From the NCBI GenBank assembly GCA_003142595.1, contig PLMU01000007.1, positions 67,166-131,165 on the forward strand: DNA of 64,000 nt. Reading direction: 5' to 3'. The notes beneath the pieces are model-generated. The model was not told the DNA's origin. It did not search any database and was given only the letters and a program-made list of their open reading frames with translations. This stretch comes from Phycisphaerales bacterium. Its GTDB lineage: Bacteria > Planctomycetota > Phycisphaerae > Sedimentisphaerales > UBA12454. The first letter of the stretch is position 1; each line of letters starts with the position of its first letter. This document shows positions 4,500-15,219 of the stretch, in pieces. The translations under genes were made by a program, and so were the position numbers.

Positions 4500-5458
4500 T
4501 TTGCAATTTCTTTGGCAAAGTAAGTTATAATTATATCGGCACCTGCCCTTTTGATTGCGGTGATAGTTTCTAAAATAACCGATTGTCTGTCGGCAATACC
4601 GTTCTGAGCGGCGGAATTTATCATCATATATTCGCCGCTAACCTGATAAGCTGCAACAGGAACATCAAAACGCTGTTTGGCCTGATAGATTATATCGAGG
4701 TATGGCAAGGCAGGCTTAATCATTACAATATCGGTGCCTTCGGAGATATCCAATTCGATTTCGCGCATTGCCTGTTTGGCTGAAGCTGCGGGGCCCATCT
4801 GATATGTTTTGCGGTCGCCAAAGGCAGGAGCTGAATCGGCGGCGTCGCGGAATGGGCCGTAAAACGCTGATGCGTATTTGGCAGAATATGACATTATCGC
4901 GGTATCAATAAAACCATTTTCATCGAGAGTTTTTCTTATTACACCAACTCTGCCGTCCATCATATCTGAAGGAGCGATTATATCGGCACCTGCTTTTGCG
5001 TGGGACAAAGCAACCTCTGCCAAAACTTCACAACTTGCGTCATTATCAACTTTTTCATCTTTTACTATACCGCAATGACCGGTGTCGGTATAGGCACATA
5101 GGCAGAGGTCGGTAATAACAAGCAAATCCGGCACGGCTTTTTTAATATTTCTGATTGCCTGCTGGACAGCGCCGCTGTCGCTGAAAGCATCTGAACCTTT
5201 TTCGTCCTTTTTTTCAGGCGAACCGAACAGCAAAACAGCAGGTATTCCAAGTTCGAAAACTTCTTTAGCCTCATCGACGACTTTATCCGGCGAGAAGTGG
5301 AAACAATCTGTCATCGATTCAATCGGTTTTTTTATGTTTTTGCCGGGGCAAACAAATAATGGATACACAAAATTATCAACAGAGAGATTAACGCCCCTGG
5401 CGAGCCTTCGCATTGAATCGCTTTTCCTAAGTCTTCGCATCCTGACAGGCATATTCAT
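4484..5458 (-). CDS. hemB: Delta-aminolevulinic acid dehydratase (porphobilinogen synthase) HemB
   Basis: 324 residues. It condenses two 5-aminolevulinate molecules into porphobilinogen. Both Schiff-base lysines are visible (SYSAKYASAFYGPFRDAA and VMIKPALPYLDII), as is a cysteine-rich metal site (DLCLCAYTDTGHCG) that implies the zinc-dependent class. I chose the ATG at 5458 because AGGA lies 7 bases upstream and the product then starts MNMPVRMRRLRKS, as usual for HemB. An upstream in-frame ATG at 5488 has a weaker ribosome site. With this start it overlaps the end of ahbC by 32 bases. Confidence 0.95.
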   Translation of the reverse strand: MNMPVRMRRLRKSDSMRRLARGVNLSVDNFVYPLFVCPGKNIKKPIESMTDCFHFSPDKVVDEAKEVFELGIPAVLLFGSPEKKDEKGSDAFSDSGAVQQAIRNIKKAVPDLLVITDLCLCAYTDTGHCGIVKDEKVDNDASCEVLAEVALSHAKAGADIIAPSDMMDGRVGVIRKTLDENGFIDTAIMSYSAKYASAFYGPFRDAADSAPAFGDRKTYQMGPAASAKQAMREIELDISEGTDIVMIKPALPYLDIIYQAKQRFDVPVAAYQVSGEYMMINSAAQNGIADRQSVILETITAIKRAGADIIITYFAKEIAKWIRR

Positions 5459-6593
5459 TTGATTTTCCTGAAATAAAAATTTCTTCATCTTTCAAATAAC
5501 ACCCCGGCTCGAGAATCCAGTTTGCGGATTGATAATTTTGGCCGGTAAACCGCATATTGGAGCCGCAGAGGGCAAACCAATGGCATTTTTTGCACCTATC
5601 TGGCGCAAAAGATATTTTATCTTTAAATAAATTAATAGAATTTTTAAAAATATCTTCAATATTCTGTTTTGTTGCATTTCCCAGAGAAAAATTCTGCCAG
5701 AACTGGTCGGGGTGAGCATTTCCGGCCGGGTCAATATCAAAAAGTTTAACGCCGATTTTATTTCCGCCGAATTTTTGAAGGAGATTTAGACTTTTTTCAT
5801 AAAGAGGCGAATTTTCCTGCTTTAAGCGATTTAAAACAAACGGTCCATCGGCGTGATTACCGACGGTGAGGACTTCGGTTATGCCGCGGGAGGCATATTC
5901 TTTTGCACAATCAAGAATATCATTCAGCGCCCGGCGAGTCTGGTCAATGGAGCATTTTAGATTATTTTTCGCCGCCTGGCCAACGGAGATGATATGATAA
6001 AAACAAATTCTGGGAATATTTAAACTCGCGGCGAGGGAAAATATATCGCGTATCTGAGTGTAATTGTGATTTGTGATTGTGAAACGCAGGCCGACTTTGA
6101 GGCCGGCGGCTTTACAAAATTTAATGCCGTCAATTGTTGAAACGAAACAGCCTTTATTCCCGCGAAATTTGTCGTGAGTTTCCTCCGTGCCGTCAATTGA
6201 AATGCCGGCATAACTTACGCCGAGGCCGACGAGTTTTTTCGCGACTGATTCGTCTATCAAACTGCCATTAGTCGAGATTACCGCTTGCAGGCCGATTTGA
6301 CGCGAGTAATCGAGAAGCTCAAATAAATCGTCTCTTTTAAGCGGTTCGCCGCCGCTGAAAAGAACGACGGCGCATTTATTATCGGCAAGCTGCTTTAAAA
6401 GGCCTTTTGCCCGGGCTGTGTCTAATTCATTATCGCTGATAAAACCTGTTTTGCTGTAGCAGTGAAGACAATTCTGATTACATTTATTAGTGCAGTTATA
6501 GACTATAATAGGTCCCGGCGGGCTGTCGGATTGATAACGGAATCTGTCCGATGAGCTTTCCAATCCGCAATAAAGTCTTGAAATATTAATCAT
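5427..6593 (-). CDS. ahbC: 12,18-didecarboxysiroheme deacetylase AhbC (radical SAM)
   Basis: 388 residues. AhbC removes two acetate side chains of didecarboxysiroheme to give Fe-coproporphyrin III. The radical SAM cluster is CNQNCLHCYSKTG, followed by LFSGGEPLKRDDLFELLDY. The segments SYAGISIDG, GLRFTITNHN, NHADGPFVL and HPDQFWQNFSLGN are characteristic of AhbC rather than of AhbD. The C-terminal CKKCHWFALCG suggests a second Fe-S cluster. The start overlaps the cobA/hemD stop by 4 bases (ATGA). Radical SAM family assignment is near certain; AhbC rather than NirJ is supported by neighbours that make heme b, with no heme d1-specific genes. Confidence 0.9.
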   Translation of the reverse strand: MINISRLYCGLESSSDRFRYQSDSPPGPIIVYNCTNKCNQNCLHCYSKTGFISDNELDTARAKGLLKQLADNKCAVVLFSGGEPLKRDDLFELLDYSRQIGLQAVISTNGSLIDESVAKKLVGLGVSYAGISIDGTEETHDKFRGNKGCFVSTIDGIKFCKAAGLKVGLRFTITNHNYTQIRDIFSLAASLNIPRICFYHIISVGQAAKNNLKCSIDQTRRALNDILDCAKEYASRGITEVLTVGNHADGPFVLNRLKQENSPLYEKSLNLLQKFGGNKIGVKLFDIDPAGNAHPDQFWQNFSLGNATKQNIEDIFKNSINLFKDKISFAPDRCKKCHWFALCGSNMRFTGQNYQSANWILEPGCYLKDEEIFISGKSNEYACQDAKT

Positions 6594-8080
6594 TTTGCAT
6601 TTTCCATCGCATCAATAAGACCGTCAATAGTATGCTCGGCAGGTTCAACTGTCGGAGTTATGCCGATTTTTTTCAGCGCCTCGGTAGTTGTCGGGCCGAT
6701 TGAGGCAATTTTTGTCTTTCCTATAATTTTCAAGTCAAAATCTTCAAAAAAACATTTAACAGCAAAACTGCTGGCAAAAGCAATCCAGTCAATCTCATCC
6801 GTCTTAAACTGACGAGCGAGCGATGATACATCGTTTTTAACTTTTTCGGCAGAGTAAGTTGAAACTCCCCTGACCTGAGCGCGGCAGGCCGATAATTTTT
6901 CAGCAAGCTGGGAATCGGCAAGAACAGAACGCAAAAGCAGGATTTTTTTGCCGGCAGGATTATGTTCTTTTATAAAACTTTTGGCAAATTCAATCGATGT
7001 AAAAATTTCCGGTGTAAAATCGGCCTTGATGCCGAAATTATCAAGCTCAGCAGCGGTCTGCGAACCAATACAGGCAATTTTAGCGGCGCCAAAAACACGG
7101 GCGTCTTTATTTAATTTATCCAAAGCGCCGAAAAACAATTTTACGCCTTTGGGACTTGTAAAAAAGACCCAATCGAAATTCGCTATCTCTTTAACTATTC
7201 CTTTAAATTCTTCAGAATTGGTTAAATCTTGTATTTTAAAGGCCGGATACTCAATTGCACGGGCGCCTCGGGCGGCAAGTTTGCAGGCGAGTTCGGCATT
7301 GCCCTGTGAATCGCGAGTCACCACAATATTTTTGCCGAATAAAGGAAGATTTTCAAACCAGCTAAAGCAATCTTTTCCAATTATTAAAACAGCCGGCGGC
7401 TCGATATTTTCGTCGGTGCATTTTCGGCAAATATCCAAGACAGTGCCTTTGACTATTCTCTGATTCGCCAGGCAGGCATTTGCAACAATAAAAGCATTTG
7501 TATCTGCTGACAGACCGGCGTTTATCAATCTTGGGCAGATTTTGTCCATATTTTTAACAGCCATATAAAAGACAATCGTGCCGCCCAGTTTAACAAGGCT
7601 TGCAAAATCAATATCGACTTCTTTGCCGTCAGCAGCCTGGCCTGTAATATAAGTTACAGACGAGGCGGTGTTTCTATCAGTGAGAACAACACCGCAGGAT
7701 GCCGCGGCGGCCGATGCGGCGGTAATGCCGGGAATAATTTCAAAATCTATATTGTTATCAGTGAGGCATTTTAATTCTTCGCTCGCCCTGCCGAAAATCA
7801 TCGGGTCGCCGCCTTTGAGCCTGACTATTTTTTTATAAATTTTAGCCTTTTTAATAATCAGCTTGTTTATTTCATCCTGGCTAATACTTTTTTCGCCGTG
7901 GTCTTTGCCGACATAAAAAAGTTCGGCTTTTTGTGGAATAAGATTGAGAAGTTCATTGCCTATAAGCCTGTCATAAATGACGCAATCGGCCTGCTGCAAA
8001 ATCTGCAAGCCTCTAACGCTGATAAAACCCGCGCTGCCGGGCCCTGCGCCAACTGTATATACTTTCGATTTTCTATTCAT
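6590..8080 (-). CDS. cobA-hemD: Fused uroporphyrinogen-III C-methyltransferase / uroporphyrinogen-III synthase
   Basis: 496 residues. Residues 1-245 are a SUMT methyltransferase (VGAGPGSAGFISVRGL, VIYDRL, RLKGGDPMIFGRASEE, PGITAASAAAASCGVVLTDR) that makes precorrin-2 from uroporphyrinogen III. Residues 255-496 are a uroporphyrinogen-III synthase (FFTSPKGVKLFF, ASIGPTTTEALKKIG). The fusion is common in anaerobes that make heme or corrinoids. It overlaps hemC by 8 bases and ahbC by 4. No precorrin-2 dehydrogenase/ferrochelatase is fused, so the enzyme that completes siroheme must be encoded elsewhere. Confidence 0.94.
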   Translation of the reverse strand: MNRKSKVYTVGAGPGSAGFISVRGLQILQQADCVIYDRLIGNELLNLIPQKAELFYVGKDHGEKSISQDEINKLIIKKAKIYKKIVRLKGGDPMIFGRASEELKCLTDNNIDFEIIPGITAASAAAASCGVVLTDRNTASSVTYITGQAADGKEVDIDFASLVKLGGTIVFYMAVKNMDKICPRLINAGLSADTNAFIVANACLANQRIVKGTVLDICRKCTDENIEPPAVLIIGKDCFSWFENLPLFGKNIVVTRDSQGNAELACKLAARGARAIEYPAFKIQDLTNSEEFKGIVKEIANFDWVFFTSPKGVKLFFGALDKLNKDARVFGAAKIACIGSQTAAELDNFGIKADFTPEIFTSIEFAKSFIKEHNPAGKKILLLRSVLADSQLAEKLSACRAQVRGVSTYSAEKVKNDVSSLARQFKTDEIDWIAFASSFAVKCFFEDFDLKIIGKTKIASIGPTTTEALKKIGITPTVEPAEHTIDGLIDAMENAK

Positions 8081-8990
8081 TCTTCAACAACTCCGCGGCT
8101 CCCGCTTCTAAAAGTTCATTTGCCAAATCCTGCGCAACTTTCCGGGCGGATTTAACCTGGCCTTTGGCCCGGCGATTAATCATTTTTCGTCCGTTCGGAT
8201 CTGACACAAAGGCATATACTGTAATATCATCGCTGTCAATTTGCGCAAACACACCTGCCGGCGCATGACAGCCTGCACCGATTATGTGCCAGACAAGCCT
8301 TTCTGTATCAGATGTAATCCGCGACGGCTTATCGTCAAATTCCGCCAGCAGTTTTAAAATCTTATTATCATCCGCTTTTACCTGCACGGCGATAGCGCCC
8401 TGCGCAGGAGCGGAAATAAATTCGGCCGGGTCAAACATCAGAGAAACCTTATCGGCCAGGCCGAGTCTTTCAACGCCTGCATAAGCCAGAACTGTCGCGT
8501 CAAACTGGCCTTTTTCGACCTGACTGATTCTTGTCGGCACATTGCCTCTTATCGGCTCACATTTCAAATCCGGCCTTTGGTGCAAAAGCTGAGCTTTTCT
8601 GCGAAGGCTCGATGTGCCGATTCTGGCGCCTTTGGGCAAATCCTTCATCATTTTTATTTTTTTACCGCAAATAAGGCAGTCCTGGCAATATTTTCTGTCC
8701 AAAACCGCAGCAACAGTCAGACCTTCGGTTTTTTCTATCGGCAAATCCTTGAAACTATGCACAGCGATATCAGCTTTATTTTCACGCAGAGCATTTTCTA
8801 TCGCGGTGGTAAAAAAACCTGTTTCCGACAATTCCCAGAGAGGCTTTTTTTTATCGATATCGCCCTTGCTTTTTATTTCAACTATTTCAAAATCAATATC
8901 TTCTTTTTGTTTTTTGACTGCCTCAACAAAAATTTGCGTTTGAATAAGAGCCAGGCTGCTTGAACGCGTTGCAATGCGGAGCTTGTTCAT
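8073..8990 (-). CDS. hemC: Porphobilinogen deaminase (hydroxymethylbilane synthase) HemC
   Basis: 305 residues from the ATG at 8990, whose first base is the last base of the hemA stop (TGATG). An upstream in-frame start at 9041 would put 17 non-homologous residues before the conserved MNKLRIATRSSSLALIQT. It polymerises four porphobilinogens. Diagnostic segments are VHSFKDLPI, GTSSLRRKAQL and RGNVPTRI, with the dipyrromethane cofactor cysteine in IGAGCHAPAG. It sits between hemA and cobA/hemD with overlaps on both sides, so is surely co-translated with them. Confidence 0.96.
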   Translation of the reverse strand: MNKLRIATRSSSLALIQTQIFVEAVKKQKEDIDFEIVEIKSKGDIDKKKPLWELSETGFFTTAIENALRENKADIAVHSFKDLPIEKTEGLTVAAVLDRKYCQDCLICGKKIKMMKDLPKGARIGTSSLRRKAQLLHQRPDLKCEPIRGNVPTRISQVEKGQFDATVLAYAGVERLGLADKVSLMFDPAEFISAPAQGAIAVQVKADDNKILKLLAEFDDKPSRITSDTERLVWHIIGAGCHAPAGVFAQIDSDDITVYAFVSDPNGRKMINRRAKGQVKSARKVAQDLANELLEAGAAELLKNE

Positions 8991-10006
8991 CAGCAGGCCT
9001 CTTCCATAACAGCCGGTTTCGTTCCCGAACCCTGAAACCATTTCGAAAACGCCTGCACATGCTTATCAATAATCGCCTGCACCTTTGGGACTTCGGCCAG
9101 ACGTTTAAGATTATTCCCGGAGATGATTTTATTTAAACTATCGATATTAAAAAGTTTAACCGTATCGAGTTTTTTCACGCAATAATCAATATTCGGCGGC
9201 ACAGACAGGTCGATAAGAACAAGCGGTTTAATACGCTTTTCAAGCTGGGTAGCTGTTATCAAAGTCTCCTGCGAGGCGGTAGCGGTAAAAATTACATCCG
9301 CATCCGATAGATTATTTGCCAGATTAGTTAAAGGCAGAAATTTACCTGTTGTTTTTACAATCAACTGTTCAGCAGCATCGGGATTCCTGGCAACAATAGT
9401 AATATCCTGAACTTTTTTCCTGATTAGATGCTTTACAACAAGCTCTGCATTTTTACCTGAACCGATTACAAAGACCTTTGCCTTATCAATTGCAATATTA
9501 TCGGCAGCAAGCTGCACAGCCGCCTGTGCAATAGACAATGCGCCGGTATTTATATTCGTATGAGTTCTAACCGCTTTGGCCGCGCGAAAAGCGCCATGCA
9601 GAAGATGGTGAAACATATAGTCAACGGAATCACACTTCAACGCGAAGATATACGCCGTTTTCAATTGAGAAAAAATTTCATTTTCACCGATAATCTGCGA
9701 TTCGAGGCCGCCTGCCACTTTGAAAAGATGCCCCGCAACGTCAAGGTCTTTCAAAACCTGTTTATGCTCATTCCAGCAGTTATGAGAAATAAAATTATCG
9801 ACAACAGGTGAAACATCGAAATGTTTTTTCGAGTAGAAATAAAATTCCAGCCTGTTGCAGGTGTTGAGTATCAGAGCATCGCTGATTTGAGGGAAGTTCC
9901 GGCAGTGACAAAGAAAATCCTCCTGCTGCCGAAGGTCAAGCACGAGTTTTTCTCTTGCAGCGGCAGGACAATTCCTGAAATCAACGCCCTGAAAAACTAT
10001 ATTCAT
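8990..10006 (-). CDS. hemA: Glutamyl-tRNA reductase HemA
   Basis: 338 residues, the first committed step of C5-pathway tetrapyrrole synthesis. The catalytic cysteine is C50 in LILNTCNRLEFYFY. Further hallmarks are AGGLESQIIGENEIFSQLK and the NADPH-binding VIGSGKNAELVVKHL. It is shorter than the usual 400-450 residues because the C-terminal dimerisation domain is reduced. ATG at 10006, with AGGGA 7 bases upstream, lies 14 bases after the ccsA stop. The partner glutamate-1-semialdehyde aminotransferase is not in this window. Confidence 0.94.
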   Translation of the reverse strand: MNIVFQGVDFRNCPAAAREKLVLDLRQQEDFLCHCRNFPQISDALILNTCNRLEFYFYSKKHFDVSPVVDNFISHNCWNEHKQVLKDLDVAGHLFKVAGGLESQIIGENEIFSQLKTAYIFALKCDSVDYMFHHLLHGAFRAAKAVRTHTNINTGALSIAQAAVQLAADNIAIDKAKVFVIGSGKNAELVVKHLIRKKVQDITIVARNPDAAEQLIVKTTGKFLPLTNLANNLSDADVIFTATASQETLITATQLEKRIKPLVLIDLSVPPNIDYCVKKLDTVKLFNIDSLNKIISGNNLKRLAEVPKVQAIIDKHVQAFSKWFQGSGTKPAVMEEAC

Positions 10007-10020
10007 AACAAATCCCTGCT

Positions 10021-10845
10021 TTAAACGGCATAACTATGAAGGCCTGCGAAAATTCTCGAGAAATTTACCCATAAAAGGCAAATTATAATCAATATAAACC
10101 CTATGATAATCCATAAGCTATTTAAACGCAAAAATCTTTGCTTATATAAGTATCTGAAAAGCAGAAAAGCCGCAAAAACAAGCCATACAGCGAGAGAAAA
10201 CATTTCTTTCGGGTCCCAGCCCCACCAGTTTCCCCAGGCGAAAGCCGCCCAGATACTGCCAAGGGCAAGGCCGGCGGTCATAAACGGAAATCCCATACAA
10301 ACAAAACGGTACGCGTCGATTTCAGCCTGCGGCGTAAGACCCGCAGCGAAAAAAACCGCCCTGGCTATAAAAACATACGAAAGCAGATAGGCAAAAACAT
10401 GGGGCACAAAAAAGAAACTGTTAAGCTGCGAATGGCCGGGCACAATGCGAAAGTAAAAAATAAACATTACCGCAACGAGCAATATAACTGCCGTTATAAT
10501 ATCCACAATGCCGGGCCGAACCCGAAATAGACCGAAAAGGCCAATACTGCCAATTACATAACCTGCAAAAAGAGTACAATTACAGTGAGTGAAACCTGCC
10601 GCCAGAACCAGTAAAGCTCCCAGACCAACCGCAAGCGGCCATATTGTCCTGCAAGTTTCCCTAAATTCACACAAACTCGCGATAATTAGCAGCCCGATGC
10701 AAATCCCAAGTCCCCTGCCGGCCGGAGAAGTAAAAAACCATTTTGACCATTCGGCACCCATAACAGCCCCGATGACACAGAACGCCGCCGAAAACATCAG
10801 CAATATCGTGCCGGTTAATAAACAAAGCTGTTTTAACCTGTTCAT
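10021..10845 (-). CDS. ccsA: Cytochrome c biogenesis protein CcsA/ResC-type heme handler
   Basis: 274 residues with about eight membrane segments. The heme-handling tryptophan-rich motif WGNWWGWDPKE followed by MFSLAVWLVFAAF identifies the CcsA/CcmC/CcmF superfamily; length and order fit CcsA. It would deliver heme across the membrane for attachment to apocytochromes c. The ATG at 10845 has AGGGA 6 bases upstream; a TTG two codons earlier is less likely. It is first in the heme operon, tying heme synthesis to cytochrome c maturation. The partner ResB/Ccs1 is not in this window. Confidence 0.88.
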   Translation of the reverse strand: MNRLKQLCLLTGTILLMFSAAFCVIGAVMGAEWSKWFFTSPAGRGLGICIGLLIIASLCEFRETCRTIWPLAVGLGALLVLAAGFTHCNCTLFAGYVIGSIGLFGLFRVRPGIVDIITAVILLVAVMFIFYFRIVPGHSQLNSFFFVPHVFAYLLSYVFIARAVFFAAGLTPQAEIDAYRFVCMGFPFMTAGLALGSIWAAFAWGNWWGWDPKEMFSLAVWLVFAAFLLFRYLYKQRFLRLNSLWIIIGFILIIICLLWVNFSRIFAGLHSYAV

Positions 10846-10945
10846 AAACAATCCCTTGAAACCGATAGCAGGATAGCAGATTTAAGGCTTTTTGGCATTA
10901 AATTTCGCCTATACAACCGGCAAAAGTCGGGGGCCTAAAATGCTA

Positions 10946-10973
10946 TTGCAAAACATTTAATTAACATTATAAT
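10946..10973 (+). promoter_or_regulatory. Sigma-70-type promoter for the TPR/alpha-CTD gene
   Basis: TTGCAA (10946-10951), a 16-base spacer, then a perfect TATAAT (10968-10973). Predicted transcription start is near 10980, giving a 5' leader of about 64 bases that ends with AGGAG 9 bases before the ATG at 11044. Confidence 0.7.
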
Positions 10974-11043
10974 GTTGTTCTTTCCAAAATCGATTAAAAG
11001 CAAAACCTTTAAATATCTATAGTTACATTAGGAGTAAAAGACA

Positions 11044-12363
11044 ATGGTAGCAATAAGCCAGCCGCGGATTGATTTATTCAGCGCTGAAACTATTACACTC
11101 GAAGACATCTTATCGATAGCCGAGTATGCAATTTCAAGCGAACGGAATAAAATAGCATTCGCAGAAAAAACCGAACAAGCCCTGTCGAAACCCGGCAAAA
11201 AAAATTATCTGGCTTTGGGAGCCGCTCTCGCAATGCTGGGCAGATACACACAGGCAATCGAAACACTCGAAAAAGCCGACGATAATAAAGAGAAGTTTCT
11301 CGAACTCGCTTTTTGCCTGCGGAAGTTAGACTTGTATGATAAGGCCATCGCGGCACTTGATAAAACGGCGAAAGCCGGAGCAGACGCGTTATTAGTCAAC
11401 TGCTCCAAGGCATCAATATACCGCCTTAAAGGCGATTTCAACAGTGCACAGGAGATGATAAAAGCCTGCAGCAATTACGCCAAGGCAAGCGCATTGTATC
11501 ATTATACAGTCGGCCGATGTTTAGACGCTCAGGGCAATTATGAGCAGGCAATTGAAAATTATAAGACAGCGGTTGAAATCGACCCTACGTTCAGAAAGGC
11601 GCTGTTTCACCTTGCCTATCTGCTCGACATAAGAGGCGATGAAGAGGCGGCGATTGACTATTACAAACAGATGATAAACAACTGCACGCCTTATGTAAGC
11701 GCACTGCTGAACCTGGCGGTCCTTTATGAAGATACCAACCAATACGACAAGGCGACAGCCTGCATCGACCAGGTGCTTAAATACCACCCGAACAATCAGC
11801 GGGCAATCATTTTCAAAAAAGACATCGAAAGCTCCAAAACGATGCTTTATGATGAAGAGATTGAAAAGAGCAAAGACCGTCAGAGCAAGGTGCTTGAGAC
11901 GCCGATTTCAGATTTTGAGCTTTCCGTCCGAAGCAGGAACTGCTTAAAGAAGATGAACATAAACTCTTTAGGCGACCTCTTGAAGACTACAGAAGCTGAA
12001 CTTCTGGCATATAAGAATTTCGGAGAAACAAGCCTTAGTGAAATAAAACATATGCTCGATTCAAAGGGATTAAGACTTGGAATGACGGCAGAAGGTAAAT
12101 TCCCCATTGAAATCCAACTGATGGGACCGCAGGAAGCTCAGGCAGATATAGACAAAGAGATTATCAATAAATCAATGGATGATTTTGATATGTCTATCAG
12201 GGCAAGAAACTGCCTGATGCAATTGAATATCAAGACTATCGGCGACCTTATTTCAAAAACCGAAGCTGAAATGCTCGGCGTCAAGAATTTCGGCGTTACA
12301 AGCCTGACGGAAATTAAGCAGGTTCTCGACAGTCTCGGACTTGGTTTTCGCAAGATTGATTAA
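11044..12363 (+). CDS. TPR protein with two tandem RNA polymerase alpha-CTD-like domains
   Basis: 439 residues, no signal peptide, cytoplasmic. Residues 50-260 are about six TPR-like helical repeats (for example GNYEQAIENYKTAVEIDPTF). Residues 287-347 and 377-437 are two copies of the RNA polymerase alpha-subunit C-terminal domain: ELSVRSRNCLKK, LGDLLKTTEAELL, KNFGETSLSEIK in the first, and MSIRARNCLMQ with KNFGVTSLTEIK in the second. Positions equivalent to E. coli R265, N268, G296 and S299, which contact UP-element DNA, are kept in both; K298 is Thr in both. It lacks the alpha N-terminal domain, so it is not RpoA. Proteins of this kind recur in planctomycetes. A role in DNA or polymerase contact is inference. 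Confidence 0.85.
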   Translation: MVAISQPRIDLFSAETITLEDILSIAEYAISSERNKIAFAEKTEQALSKPGKKNYLALGAALAMLGRYTQAIETLEKADDNKEKFLELAFCLRKLDLYDKAIAALDKTAKAGADALLVNCSKASIYRLKGDFNSAQEMIKACSNYAKASALYHYTVGRCLDAQGNYEQAIENYKTAVEIDPTFRKALFHLAYLLDIRGDEEAAIDYYKQMINNCTPYVSALLNLAVLYEDTNQYDKATACIDQVLKYHPNNQRAIIFKKDIESSKTMLYDEEIEKSKDRQSKVLETPISDFELSVRSRNCLKKMNINSLGDLLKTTEAELLAYKNFGETSLSEIKHMLDSKGLRLGMTAEGKFPIEIQLMGPQEAQADIDKEIINKSMDDFDMSIRARNCLMQLNIKTIGDLISKTEAEMLGVKNFGVTSLTEIKQVLDSLGLGFRKID

Positions 12364-12378
12364 TTTACTACTATTATT

Positions 12379-13623
12379 ATGTTGATAAAAACATCTCTTA
12401 TAACAGCCGTTTTTTCGGTTATTATGTTCGTTTGTGTGACCGGCTGTAATGCTGAATCGCAGAGCATTGAACCGTTCCTGATACCCTGCCCGCCCGAGTA
12501 CGGAATCAGGGTTCTGCTGGATGACACTGCAAAAAAAATTACCTTCGCGATTGACGATGAGTATCAAATCATAAACTTTGATACCACCAAGATTCTCAAT
12601 GCGGCCGGGACTACAGGTCCAATCGAAGTTACCATAGATAATAATTCCATAAAGGTCGGCCGGGAGCGTTTAAATACCAGACGCGCAATTATTCAACCGC
12701 AGAAATACCAATTCTTCAGGATAAATGACAATCTGGCATACCGAGGCAATCTTGAAATCATTATTAACGCCGACAATAAAACTATGATGGTCATTAATAA
12801 TGTTCAGCTGGAAACATACCTTGCCGGCGTAATAGCCGCCGAGATGCCAAGCTACTGGGAAATGGAAACATTAAAGGCACAGGCGATTGCCTCCAGAACA
12901 TACTGCCTGTATATGAAAACCAAATTTGGAAAAAATCGGCATTGGGACGTCAAGGCCACACAGGCAAATCAGGTTTACAAAGGTGTTCGCGTAGAAACGA
13001 TGCGAACGACAGAAGCGGTCCGCAGAACCGCAGGCGTTGTGTTATGCTGCGAGCAGGAACTCGGCTGTGAAGAGTTTCCATCCTATTACAGTTCGGCCTG
13101 TGGAGGGCATACCGAAAACAGCGAAAACGTGTTTGGCGACAGTTTCCAGCCCTTAAGAGGCGTTGACTGTCCATACTGCAAAAAAAGCACAAGATCGACT
13201 TTGTTTAACTGGCCCCAGGCGGTATTCGACTCAAATTTCGTGACTAAAAATATCCTCGATAAATATCCGGCTCTGATAGAATTAGGGCAAATAGTAAAGA
13301 TAGAGCCATCAAAGGAAAGTAAGTATGATAATAATTTCAGGAGAATCGTCAGTGTAAAACTGACAGGCTCTACCGGCAAAACGGCTTTCCTGCGGGCCGA
13401 AGACCTGCGTCTTGCAATTGACCCTTCCGGAGCGAAAATTCAAAGCACCTGCTGCACCATAGTAAGTCTCAAAGATGAATTTATTTTTATTGCCGGCAAA
13501 GGTTTCGGACACGGAGTCGGTCTTTGCCAGTATGGGTCGAGAGAAATGGCCAGGCAGGGAAAAACCACAGAGCAGATTCTAAGCTACTATTATCCCAACA
13601 GCCGGCTGAAATATTTATATTAA
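12379..13623 (+). CDS. SpoIID/LytB-domain lipoprotein (peptidoglycan lytic enzyme-like)
   Basis: 414 residues with a lipoprotein signal peptide (lipobox VTGC, C23). The SpoIID domain covers about 130-414: YLAGVIAAEMPSYWEMETLKAQAIASRTY, then YYSSACGGHTEN and the C-terminal GFGHGVGLCQYGS. SpoIID is a lytic transglycosylase acting on denuded glycan, and LytB is an amidase enhancer. The conserved glutamate in AAEMPS and the CGGHTE segment are present, so activity is plausible. It follows the TPR/alpha-CTD gene by 15 bases. There is no clear ribosome-binding site. This organism is not expected to sporulate, so a cell-wall remodelling role is likely. Confidence 0.87.
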   Translation: MLIKTSLITAVFSVIMFVCVTGCNAESQSIEPFLIPCPPEYGIRVLLDDTAKKITFAIDDEYQIINFDTTKILNAAGTTGPIEVTIDNNSIKVGRERLNTRRAIIQPQKYQFFRINDNLAYRGNLEIIINADNKTMMVINNVQLETYLAGVIAAEMPSYWEMETLKAQAIASRTYCLYMKTKFGKNRHWDVKATQANQVYKGVRVETMRTTEAVRRTAGVVLCCEQELGCEEFPSYYSSACGGHTENSENVFGDSFQPLRGVDCPYCKKSTRSTLFNWPQAVFDSNFVTKNILDKYPALIELGQIVKIEPSKESKYDNNFRRIVSVKLTGSTGKTAFLRAEDLRLAIDPSGAKIQSTCCTIVSLKDEFIFIAGKGFGHGVGLCQYGSREMARQGKTTEQILSYYYPNSRLKYLY

Positions 13624-13632
13624 ACCTGTCTA

Positions 13633-14769
13633 ATGAATGTATTCGAAATAAATACAAAAGCCCCCCGAACCTCGGCAAGAACCGGCACACTGCAAACCGC
13701 CCACGGTAAGATTCGCACGCCGGTATTTATGCCCGTCGGCACAAGAGCAACAGTCAAAGGCTTATTGCCTCAGCAAATCAGCGAAGCAGGCTCACAGATT
13801 GTCCTTGCCAATACTTTTCATCTAATGCTGCGGCCCGGAGCGGATGTAATTGAAAAGCTCGGCGGTCTTCATAATTTTATGGGCTGGGACAAACCGATAC
13901 TAACCGACAGCGGCGGATTTCAGGTCTTTTCGTTAAGCTCAATCAACAGTACCGACGATAACGGAACAGAATTTGCCAGTCCTTACGATGGTGCAAAAAT
14001 TTTTCTCGATGCGGCAGGAGCGACAAAAATCCAAAACAAACTCGGAGCCGATATAATAATGTGCTTCGACCAGTGCCCTGCTCACGACGCGGAAAAAAAG
14101 GAAATTGAAAAAGCAGTCGAACGCACTATCCGATGGGCAAAAATATGCAAAGATACGCACTGCAATAATCGCCAGTTGCTTTTTGGGATTGTGCAGGGCC
14201 AAACCGACAATCATTTGCGGCAAAGCTGCGCGGCAGAACTTATCCAAATGGATTTTCCCGGCTATGCAATCGGAGGTTTAAGCGTCGGCGAAGGCACAGA
14301 ACAGATGCTGCAAACAATGCGTTTTACCGCCCCTCTGCTGCCGGAAAATAAACCAAGATACCTTATGGGCGTTGGAACTCCGGCTGATATTATCCAGGCG
14401 GTAGAGGCCGGAATAGATATGTTTGACTGTGTAATGCCGACCCGAAATGGCCGAAATGCCCTGGCTTTTACATCACAAGGCCCTATTAGACTGAGAAATT
14501 CGGCATTTATCGACGATGCCGGCCCTATAGACCCTGCCTGCGGATGTTATTGCTGTAAGACCTTTACCCGCTCGGCAATAAGGCATTTTTTCAATGTCGG
14601 CGAAATGCTCGGCCCAATTCTTCTTTCATTGCATAATATCGTTTTTTATCATAATTTAATGGACAAAATACGAGAAAACATAGAAAATGGTGCGTTTATA
14701 GAATGGGCGGCGCAGGCACTTCAAAGTCCTGCTTTTGCTCGAAATAGTCAGGCTAATGCCGACATATAA
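13633..14769 (+). CDS. tgt: Queuine/preQ1 tRNA-ribosyltransferase Tgt
   Basis: 378 residues. It exchanges guanine 34 for preQ1 in tRNAs with GUN anticodons. It shows MPVGTRATVKGLLPQQ, the substrate-binding LTDSGGFQVFSL, the specificity segment GGLSVGEG, the nucleophile region FDCVMPTRNGRNA, and the zinc ligands CGCYCC plus a histidine in LLSLHN. Placement just before yajC-secDF is the classical bacterial order. The gene starts 9 bases after the SpoIID stop. Confidence 0.97.
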   Translation: MNVFEINTKAPRTSARTGTLQTAHGKIRTPVFMPVGTRATVKGLLPQQISEAGSQIVLANTFHLMLRPGADVIEKLGGLHNFMGWDKPILTDSGGFQVFSLSSINSTDDNGTEFASPYDGAKIFLDAAGATKIQNKLGADIIMCFDQCPAHDAEKKEIEKAVERTIRWAKICKDTHCNNRQLLFGIVQGQTDNHLRQSCAAELIQMDFPGYAIGGLSVGEGTEQMLQTMRFTAPLLPENKPRYLMGVGTPADIIQAVEAGIDMFDCVMPTRNGRNALAFTSQGPIRLRNSAFIDDAGPIDPACGCYCCKTFTRSAIRHFFNVGEMLGPILLSLHNIVFYHNLMDKIRENIENGAFIEWAAQALQSPAFARNSQANADI

Positions 14770-14802: not shown

Positions 14803-15219
14803 ATGCAAAACGGATTGATTTTGGCGGCAGCCGACCAGAATACTCAGGTTATTAAAGCTGAAGATATTTCAAAAGGCGCTGCTCCTGAAGCGATTACGAA
14901 ACAGGCGGATTCGAACTCCGCAGCTCCGATTACAGCCAGGAAAAATCCCCAGGGCCAGTTCACACAGTTGATTTTCATTGTTCTTCTTTTCGCGGTAATG
15001 TATTTTATCCTGTTCCGCGGCCCCAAGAAACGCCAGCAGCAGCAGGACCAGTTGGTGAAAGCTTTGAAGAAAAACGACAGAGTACAAACCATCGGCGGAA
15101 TCCTTGGCACGGTGCTGGAAGTAACCGACACTGAAATAACTCTTAAGATTGACGAATCAAACAATACGAAAATAAGAGTGCTACCTTCTGCAATCAACAA
15201 AGTAATTGAACAGAAGTAA
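14803..15219 (+). CDS. yajC: Preprotein translocase subunit YajC
   Basis: 138 residues: an Ala/Gln-rich N-terminal stretch, one membrane helix (LIFIVLLFAVMYFILF) followed by RGPKKRQQQQDQLVKALKKNDRVQTIGGILGTV, the YajC core. It is an auxiliary part of the Sec holotranslocon with SecDF. A good ribosome site (AAAGGA) precedes the ATG. The N-terminal 45-residue extension is longer than in E. coli YajC. tgt lies upstream and secDF 46 bases downstream. Confidence 0.95.
   Translation: MQNGLILAAADQNTQVIKAEDISKGAAPEAITKQADSNSAAPITARKNPQGQFTQLIFIVLLFAVMYFILFRGPKKRQQQQDQLVKALKKNDRVQTIGGILGTVLEVTDTEITLKIDESNNTKIRVLPSAINKVIEQK

Follow-up and report, generated by a model that had tools for sequence, protein, structure and literature searches.

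A near-universal planctomycete protein that joins a TPR region to two RNA polymerase alpha-CTDs

The locus and the architecture of its TPR protein

The window, a 64,000-nucleotide stretch of a Phycisphaerales bacterium genome, contains an ORF with an ATG start codon that encodes a protein with a tetratricopeptide repeat (TPR) region and two domains of the RNA polymerase alpha-CTD type (Table 1). We refer to this protein as TPR-2CTD. Its gene heads a spoIID-tgt-yajC-secDF series in the window and in most of the taxonomic order to which the window belongs. In most loci of the class, a SpoIID/LytB-domain protein is encoded directly 3′ of TPR-2CTD; the phylum is not generally regarded as spore-forming. 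The SecDF fusion, as a single ORF downstream of yajC, recurs in related loci. On the minus strand, positions 5427-10851 hold a block that by eye resembles haem/tetrapyrrole synthesis genes (HemA-like, HemC-like, a CobA-HemD-like fusion and a radical-SAM-like ORF), and this block adjoins a gene that Pfam assigns to cytochrome c assembly.

Table 1. Features of the TPR-2CTD locus, in window coordinates.
Feature	Position	Strand	Basis
Sigma-70-like promoter candidate, TTGCAA-16-TATAAT	10946..10973	+	consensus match only
AGGAG, likely ribosome-binding site	11030..11034	+	sequence
TPR-2x alpha-CTD protein (TPR-2CTD), 439 aa	11044..12363	+	ORF, Pfam, AlphaFold2
Six TPR helix pairs, residues 55-247	11206..11784	+	Pfam TPR matches, AlphaFold2 helices
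Long capping helix, residues 252-284, into CTD1	11797..11895	+	AlphaFold2
CTD1, residues 282-348; best-conserved section of the protein	11887..12087	+	PDB sequence search, ortholog alignments
Linker CTD1-CTD2, disordered, variable	12088..12156	+	pLDDT below 50 at 354-367
CTD2, residues 372-436; the more diverged copy; Lys/Arg in place of Asn268 in most orthologs	12157..12351	+	PDB sequence search, alignment
SpoIID/LytB-domain protein, recurrent downstream neighbour	12379..13623	+	family match
Tgt-like (tRNA-guanine transglycosylase)	13633..14769	+	name from sequence, not from family library
YajC	14803..15219	+	Pfam
SecD-SecF fusion-like ORF, 1248 aa	15266..19012	+	name from sequence and position

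Two stretches of the protein match the Pfam family RNA_pol_A_CTD (PF03118), with 142.5 bits together against a cut-off of 23.8, and Pfam TPR families match at about residues 34-254. Searched alone against the PDB, each CTD retrieved RpoA chains only, with best E values of 2.4e-16 for CTD1 and 3.8e-15 for CTD2; both domains are therefore alpha-CTDs proper and not generic helix-hairpin-helix folds. The alpha N-terminal domain (NTD) is absent: Pfam gave no NTD match, and the NCBIfam rpoA models covered only the CTD columns, below cut-off. An AlphaFold2 model (41 orthologs; mean pLDDT 87.5) shows an extra N-terminal helix pair before the six TPR pairs and a capping helix of 33 residues that continues into CTD1. 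Within this helix, D260 is present in 26 of 26 matched genomes and E271 in 24 of 26, and the linker between CTD1 and CTD2 is 15-29 residues long across the same 26. A fold search with the model aligned the TPR superhelix of OGT (Z 21.3, rmsd 4.7, 238 residues) and returned TPR superhelices only. The TPR region fills that list, which is uninformative on the CTDs, and their identity thus rests on sequence rather than on the fold search. An earlier sequence-only reading of the window had described six TPRs followed by two alpha-CTDs, with no alpha-NTD. The Pfam, PDB and NCBIfam searches and the AlphaFold2 model, with its six helix pairs, all bear this out. No hydrophobic stretch was seen at the N terminus of the protein sequence, so the protein is consistent with a cytoplasmic location.

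The organism has a normal RpoA besides, of 335 residues, encoded on another contig (L001:715-1722) between putative rpsD and rplQ. PF03118 matches in this genome only at RpoA and at the TPR-2CTD gene, and the same three-alpha-CTD pattern occurs in two other planctomycete genomes. Both CTDs of TPR-2CTD share the fold and sequence of the RpoA CTD, with R265, N294, G296, S299 and E302 conserved (E. coli alpha numbering, used for all CTD residues below unless noted). CTD1 is about 52% identical to the E. coli alpha-CTD and 49% identical to the CTD of the organism's own RpoA, a comparison that the sequence-only reading had proposed. Unlike RpoA, TPR-2CTD lacks the N-terminal dimerisation/assembly domain, carries two CTDs per chain, places a TPR scaffold ahead of them, and has E297, R267, K272 and M273 as residues specific to CTD1.

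TPR and alpha-CTD modules are already known, as are alpha-CTD-like stretches outside RpoA. The BREX PglW model (NF033442) aligned to such a stretch at residues 263-346 of the protein, but it describes a large defence kinase without the TPR-2CTD architecture, and a score of 29.9 bits against a cut-off of 990 rules out membership. PRK07758 (NF005841) is a small alpha-CTD-like protein that also has no NTD; its 95-residue model scored 43 bits and did not reach its cut-off of 115, and it differs in having one domain and no TPR. AfsR (PMC10936776) is a TPR-containing transcription regulator in which a TPR region is joined to a DNA-binding activator module; it has SARP and NOD domains, not alpha-CTDs. 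Our literature search found no paper describing a TPR-2CTD protein, a phylum-wide combination of TPRs with tandem alpha-CTDs of which one is more constrained than RpoA.

Distribution across Planctomycetota and ancestry of the CTDs

Matches, nearly all of them full length, occur in every one of the 59 relatives searched. Within the class, 144 of 150 genomes have a match at E<=1e-20. A profile across the phylum, also proposed by the sequence-only reading, recovered an ortholog at E<=1e-18 in 188 of 199 sampled genomes and in 112 of 114 among the good ones; at this threshold there is one match per genome, except for one genome with two. Among the apparent negatives, several carry pieces of an alpha-CTD in short open frames, which would fit gaps in the assembly. 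Four others with a completeness of at least 90% (G055, G065, G080 and G127) have no clear second locus, and these negatives may be assembly gaps or true losses. The best 80 matches in about 85,000 species genomes all belong to Planctomycetota (Sedimentisphaerales, Phycisphaerales, Gemmatales, Singulisphaera and others). These results indicate that TPR-2CTD is a core gene of Planctomycetota, near-universal and essentially single copy.

Orthologs throughout the phylum, complete chromosomes included, rule out a local oddity or an assembly artefact. A mobile or phage origin was likewise rejected: the viral contig scan gave no relative, and the plasmid matches listed are RpoA where annotated. The plasmid search also reported 21 Streptomyces plasmid records with an alpha-CTD-like match, outside the matches listed.

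In a maximum-likelihood tree of the trimmed CTDs, all CTD1s form one clade (UFBoot 93) and all CTD2s another (UFBoot 75), and the two together stand apart from all RpoA CTDs, including those of E. coli, B. subtilis and Neisseria (UFBoot 94). FastTree agrees on the CTD1 clade and leaves the deepest split without support. The domains are short, and the deep split between CTD1+CTD2 and RpoA is for that reason tentative. The simplest reading of the tree would be one duplication before the radiation of the phylum.

Constraint on CTD1, CTD2 and RpoA

We compared the CTDs in two sets: 71 orthologs, rich in close relatives, and the broader 26 matched genomes, from which both the TPR-2CTD gene and rpoA were extracted. 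Pairwise identity in the matched genomes averages 66% for CTD1, 60% for the RpoA NTD, 56% for the RpoA CTD and 46% for CTD2; the C-terminal TPR half stands at 36% and the N-terminal TPR part at 20%. On these 26 genomes, CTD1 is under stronger constraint than RpoA, and the excess is conservative because the genomes were drawn from the best RpoA matches, a choice that favours RpoA.

R265, N268, N294, G296, S299 and E302 lie on the face of E. coli alpha that contacts the minor groove of DNA, and positions 259 and 261 (the 261 determinant) lie on the face towards sigma region 4. In CTD1 the DNA-contact residues R265, N268, G296, S299 and E302 are near invariant. Among the 71 orthologs, R265, C269, N294, G296 and E302 are each present in 71, and N268, S299 and E261 in 70, while position 259 is Asp in 67 and Glu in 4. 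In the matched genomes, R265, N294, G296, S299 and E302 are all found in 26 of 26; N268 is kept in 21, with Thr, Ala or Lys in the other 5. CTD2 keeps R265 in 71 of 71 orthologs, and N294, G296, S299 and E302 as well, so that in most orthologs it retains every contact residue except N268, which is Lys or Arg in 57 of 71; strict conservation at 259 and 261 is lost. Since CTD2 tolerates Lys or Arg at 268 and Ala at 269, the fold itself does not demand the near-invariant N268 and C269 of CTD1. In E. coli alpha, R265 and N268 are known to contact DNA, and R265A/N268A are not viable as the sole alpha (PMC11434276).

The sequence-only reading had noted equivalents of R265, N268, G296 and S299 in both CTDs of the window protein, which the alignments confirm. 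It would have been refuted by a 265 determinant that varies across orthologs; the alignments do not refute it, and R265 is kept without exception in either CTD. Its remark on the replacement of K298 was correct in that both CTDs have Thr, but it is uninformative: Thr298 is the norm of the phylum and carries no message, because it is shared by the RpoA of this organism and by 29 of 30 planctomycete RpoAs. Its picture of two CTDs that could bind AT-rich promoter DNA is supported in part: the DNA face is kept in CTD1, but CTD2 is not equivalent; given the basic residue at 268 and the variable 261 face of CTD2, two equal UP-element readers is too simple a description.

CTD1 also departs from RpoA. 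Position 297 (residue E328 of the window protein, at about 12025-12027) is Glu in 68 and Asp in 3 of the 71 orthologs, whereas planctomycete RpoAs have Lys or Arg there in 28 of 30, so the charge is reversed next to the DNA face. CTD1 has the clade-specific invariant residues F260, R267, K272, M273 and K293, from which it may recognise something that RpoA does not. The acidic positions E286 and E288 are kept in CTD1. Net charge is about +1 for CTD1, CTD2 and the RpoA CTD alike and does not separate them.

Candidate roles and the evidence of the neighbourhood

The alpha-CTD is a main hub of bacterial promoter activation. We regard it as an even call that TPR-2CTD is an ancient, vertically inherited core protein whose tandem alpha-CTDs would act in trans at promoters while the TPR region holds a partner. 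CTD1 would occupy promoter DNA upstream, next to sigma region 4, at the place where an alpha-CTD of the polymerase would bind, and CTD2, on its flexible linker, would provide a second, diverged grip on DNA. The TPR groove would bind a regulator, a chaperone-like client or the polymerase itself, so that the partner is recruited to promoters or the polymerase's own CTDs are tuned or competed with. DNA binding, contact with sigma, capture of a partner and the direction of regulation are steps that we infer from sequence. In favour of action in trans are the architecture, the single copy throughout the phylum, the constraint on CTD1 at its DNA face and at D259/E261, and the presence of true alpha-CTDs in both copies alongside a normal RpoA. 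Against it are the charge reversal at position 297, the substitutions of N268 and the clade-specific residues of CTD1, and neighbours that belong to recombination, tRNA-queuosine and Sec functions, not to transcription.

Near-universality and the constraint on CTD1 suggest that a transcription (or DNA) factor common to the phylum has been overlooked. A stronger form of this proposal, which we consider conceivable but doubtful, is a phylum-specific general transcription factor: the TPR-tethered tandem alpha-CTD would supply part of promoter recognition, and all promoters or a large regulon would depend on a protein more constrained than polymerase alpha. As far as our literature search found, transcription initiation in Planctomycetota is little studied, and a near-universal stand-alone tandem alpha-CTD would make the textbook view of the alpha-CTD as only a polymerase tail incomplete in this phylum. 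The core-factor reading is directly testable in Planctopirus limnophila, for which a transposon library at saturation exists and gene essentiality has been called (PMC10632474); the main text of that paper mentions neither 'tetratricopeptide' nor 'TPR'.

An unlikely alternative is that TPR-2CTD is a competitor or decoy, whose alpha-CTD surfaces would titrate activators or sigma off the polymerase, and so regulate negatively, without binding DNA in the cell. The kept 261 positions and acidic E286/E288 of CTD1 suit such a role, as does E297, which disfavours tight DNA binding, and with no NTD the protein cannot assemble into the polymerase as one of its subunits. Yet the DNA-face residues rank among the best conserved, CTD2 has gained basic residues at 268, and titration alone does not need two different CTDs.

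Two further alternatives, both improbable, draw on the neighbourhood. Directly downstream of TPR-2CTD, on the same strand, lies ruvA in 13 of 20 loci spread over the phylum and in two others, and three loci (L171, L183 and L191) have the order TPR-2CTD, ruvA, ruvB, queH, spoIID, tgt, yajC. This linkage keeps open a role in recombination or repair, in which the helix-hairpin-helix CTD pair would bind minor-groove or branched DNA and work with RuvAB. However, the linkage may be positional only, ruvAB-que-tgt-yajC-secDF being an old and common bacterial neighbourhood; ruvA lies outside the cluster in the window's order, and the CTDs resemble RpoA, not RuvA. Replacement of RuvC, whose gene often lies just before ruvA, is ruled out, as RuvC is encoded in 54 of 59 genomes. 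The repeated association with tgt, yajC, secDF and spoIID, together with invariant residues that RpoA does not share (K272, M273 and E297), could instead reflect a scaffold that reuses alpha-CTD folds as protein- or RNA-binding modules outside transcription, but each CTD matches RpoA only and the conservation pattern fits the known DNA-contact set.

In four loci (L153, L174, L178 and L179, of which L174 and L178 are Singulisphaera), tgt-yajC-secDF follows TPR-2CTD directly. The simplest reading of these arrangements would be an ancestral operon that was broken up in different ways among the lineages. In L171, L183 and L191, QueH occupies the place where other bacteria often have queA.
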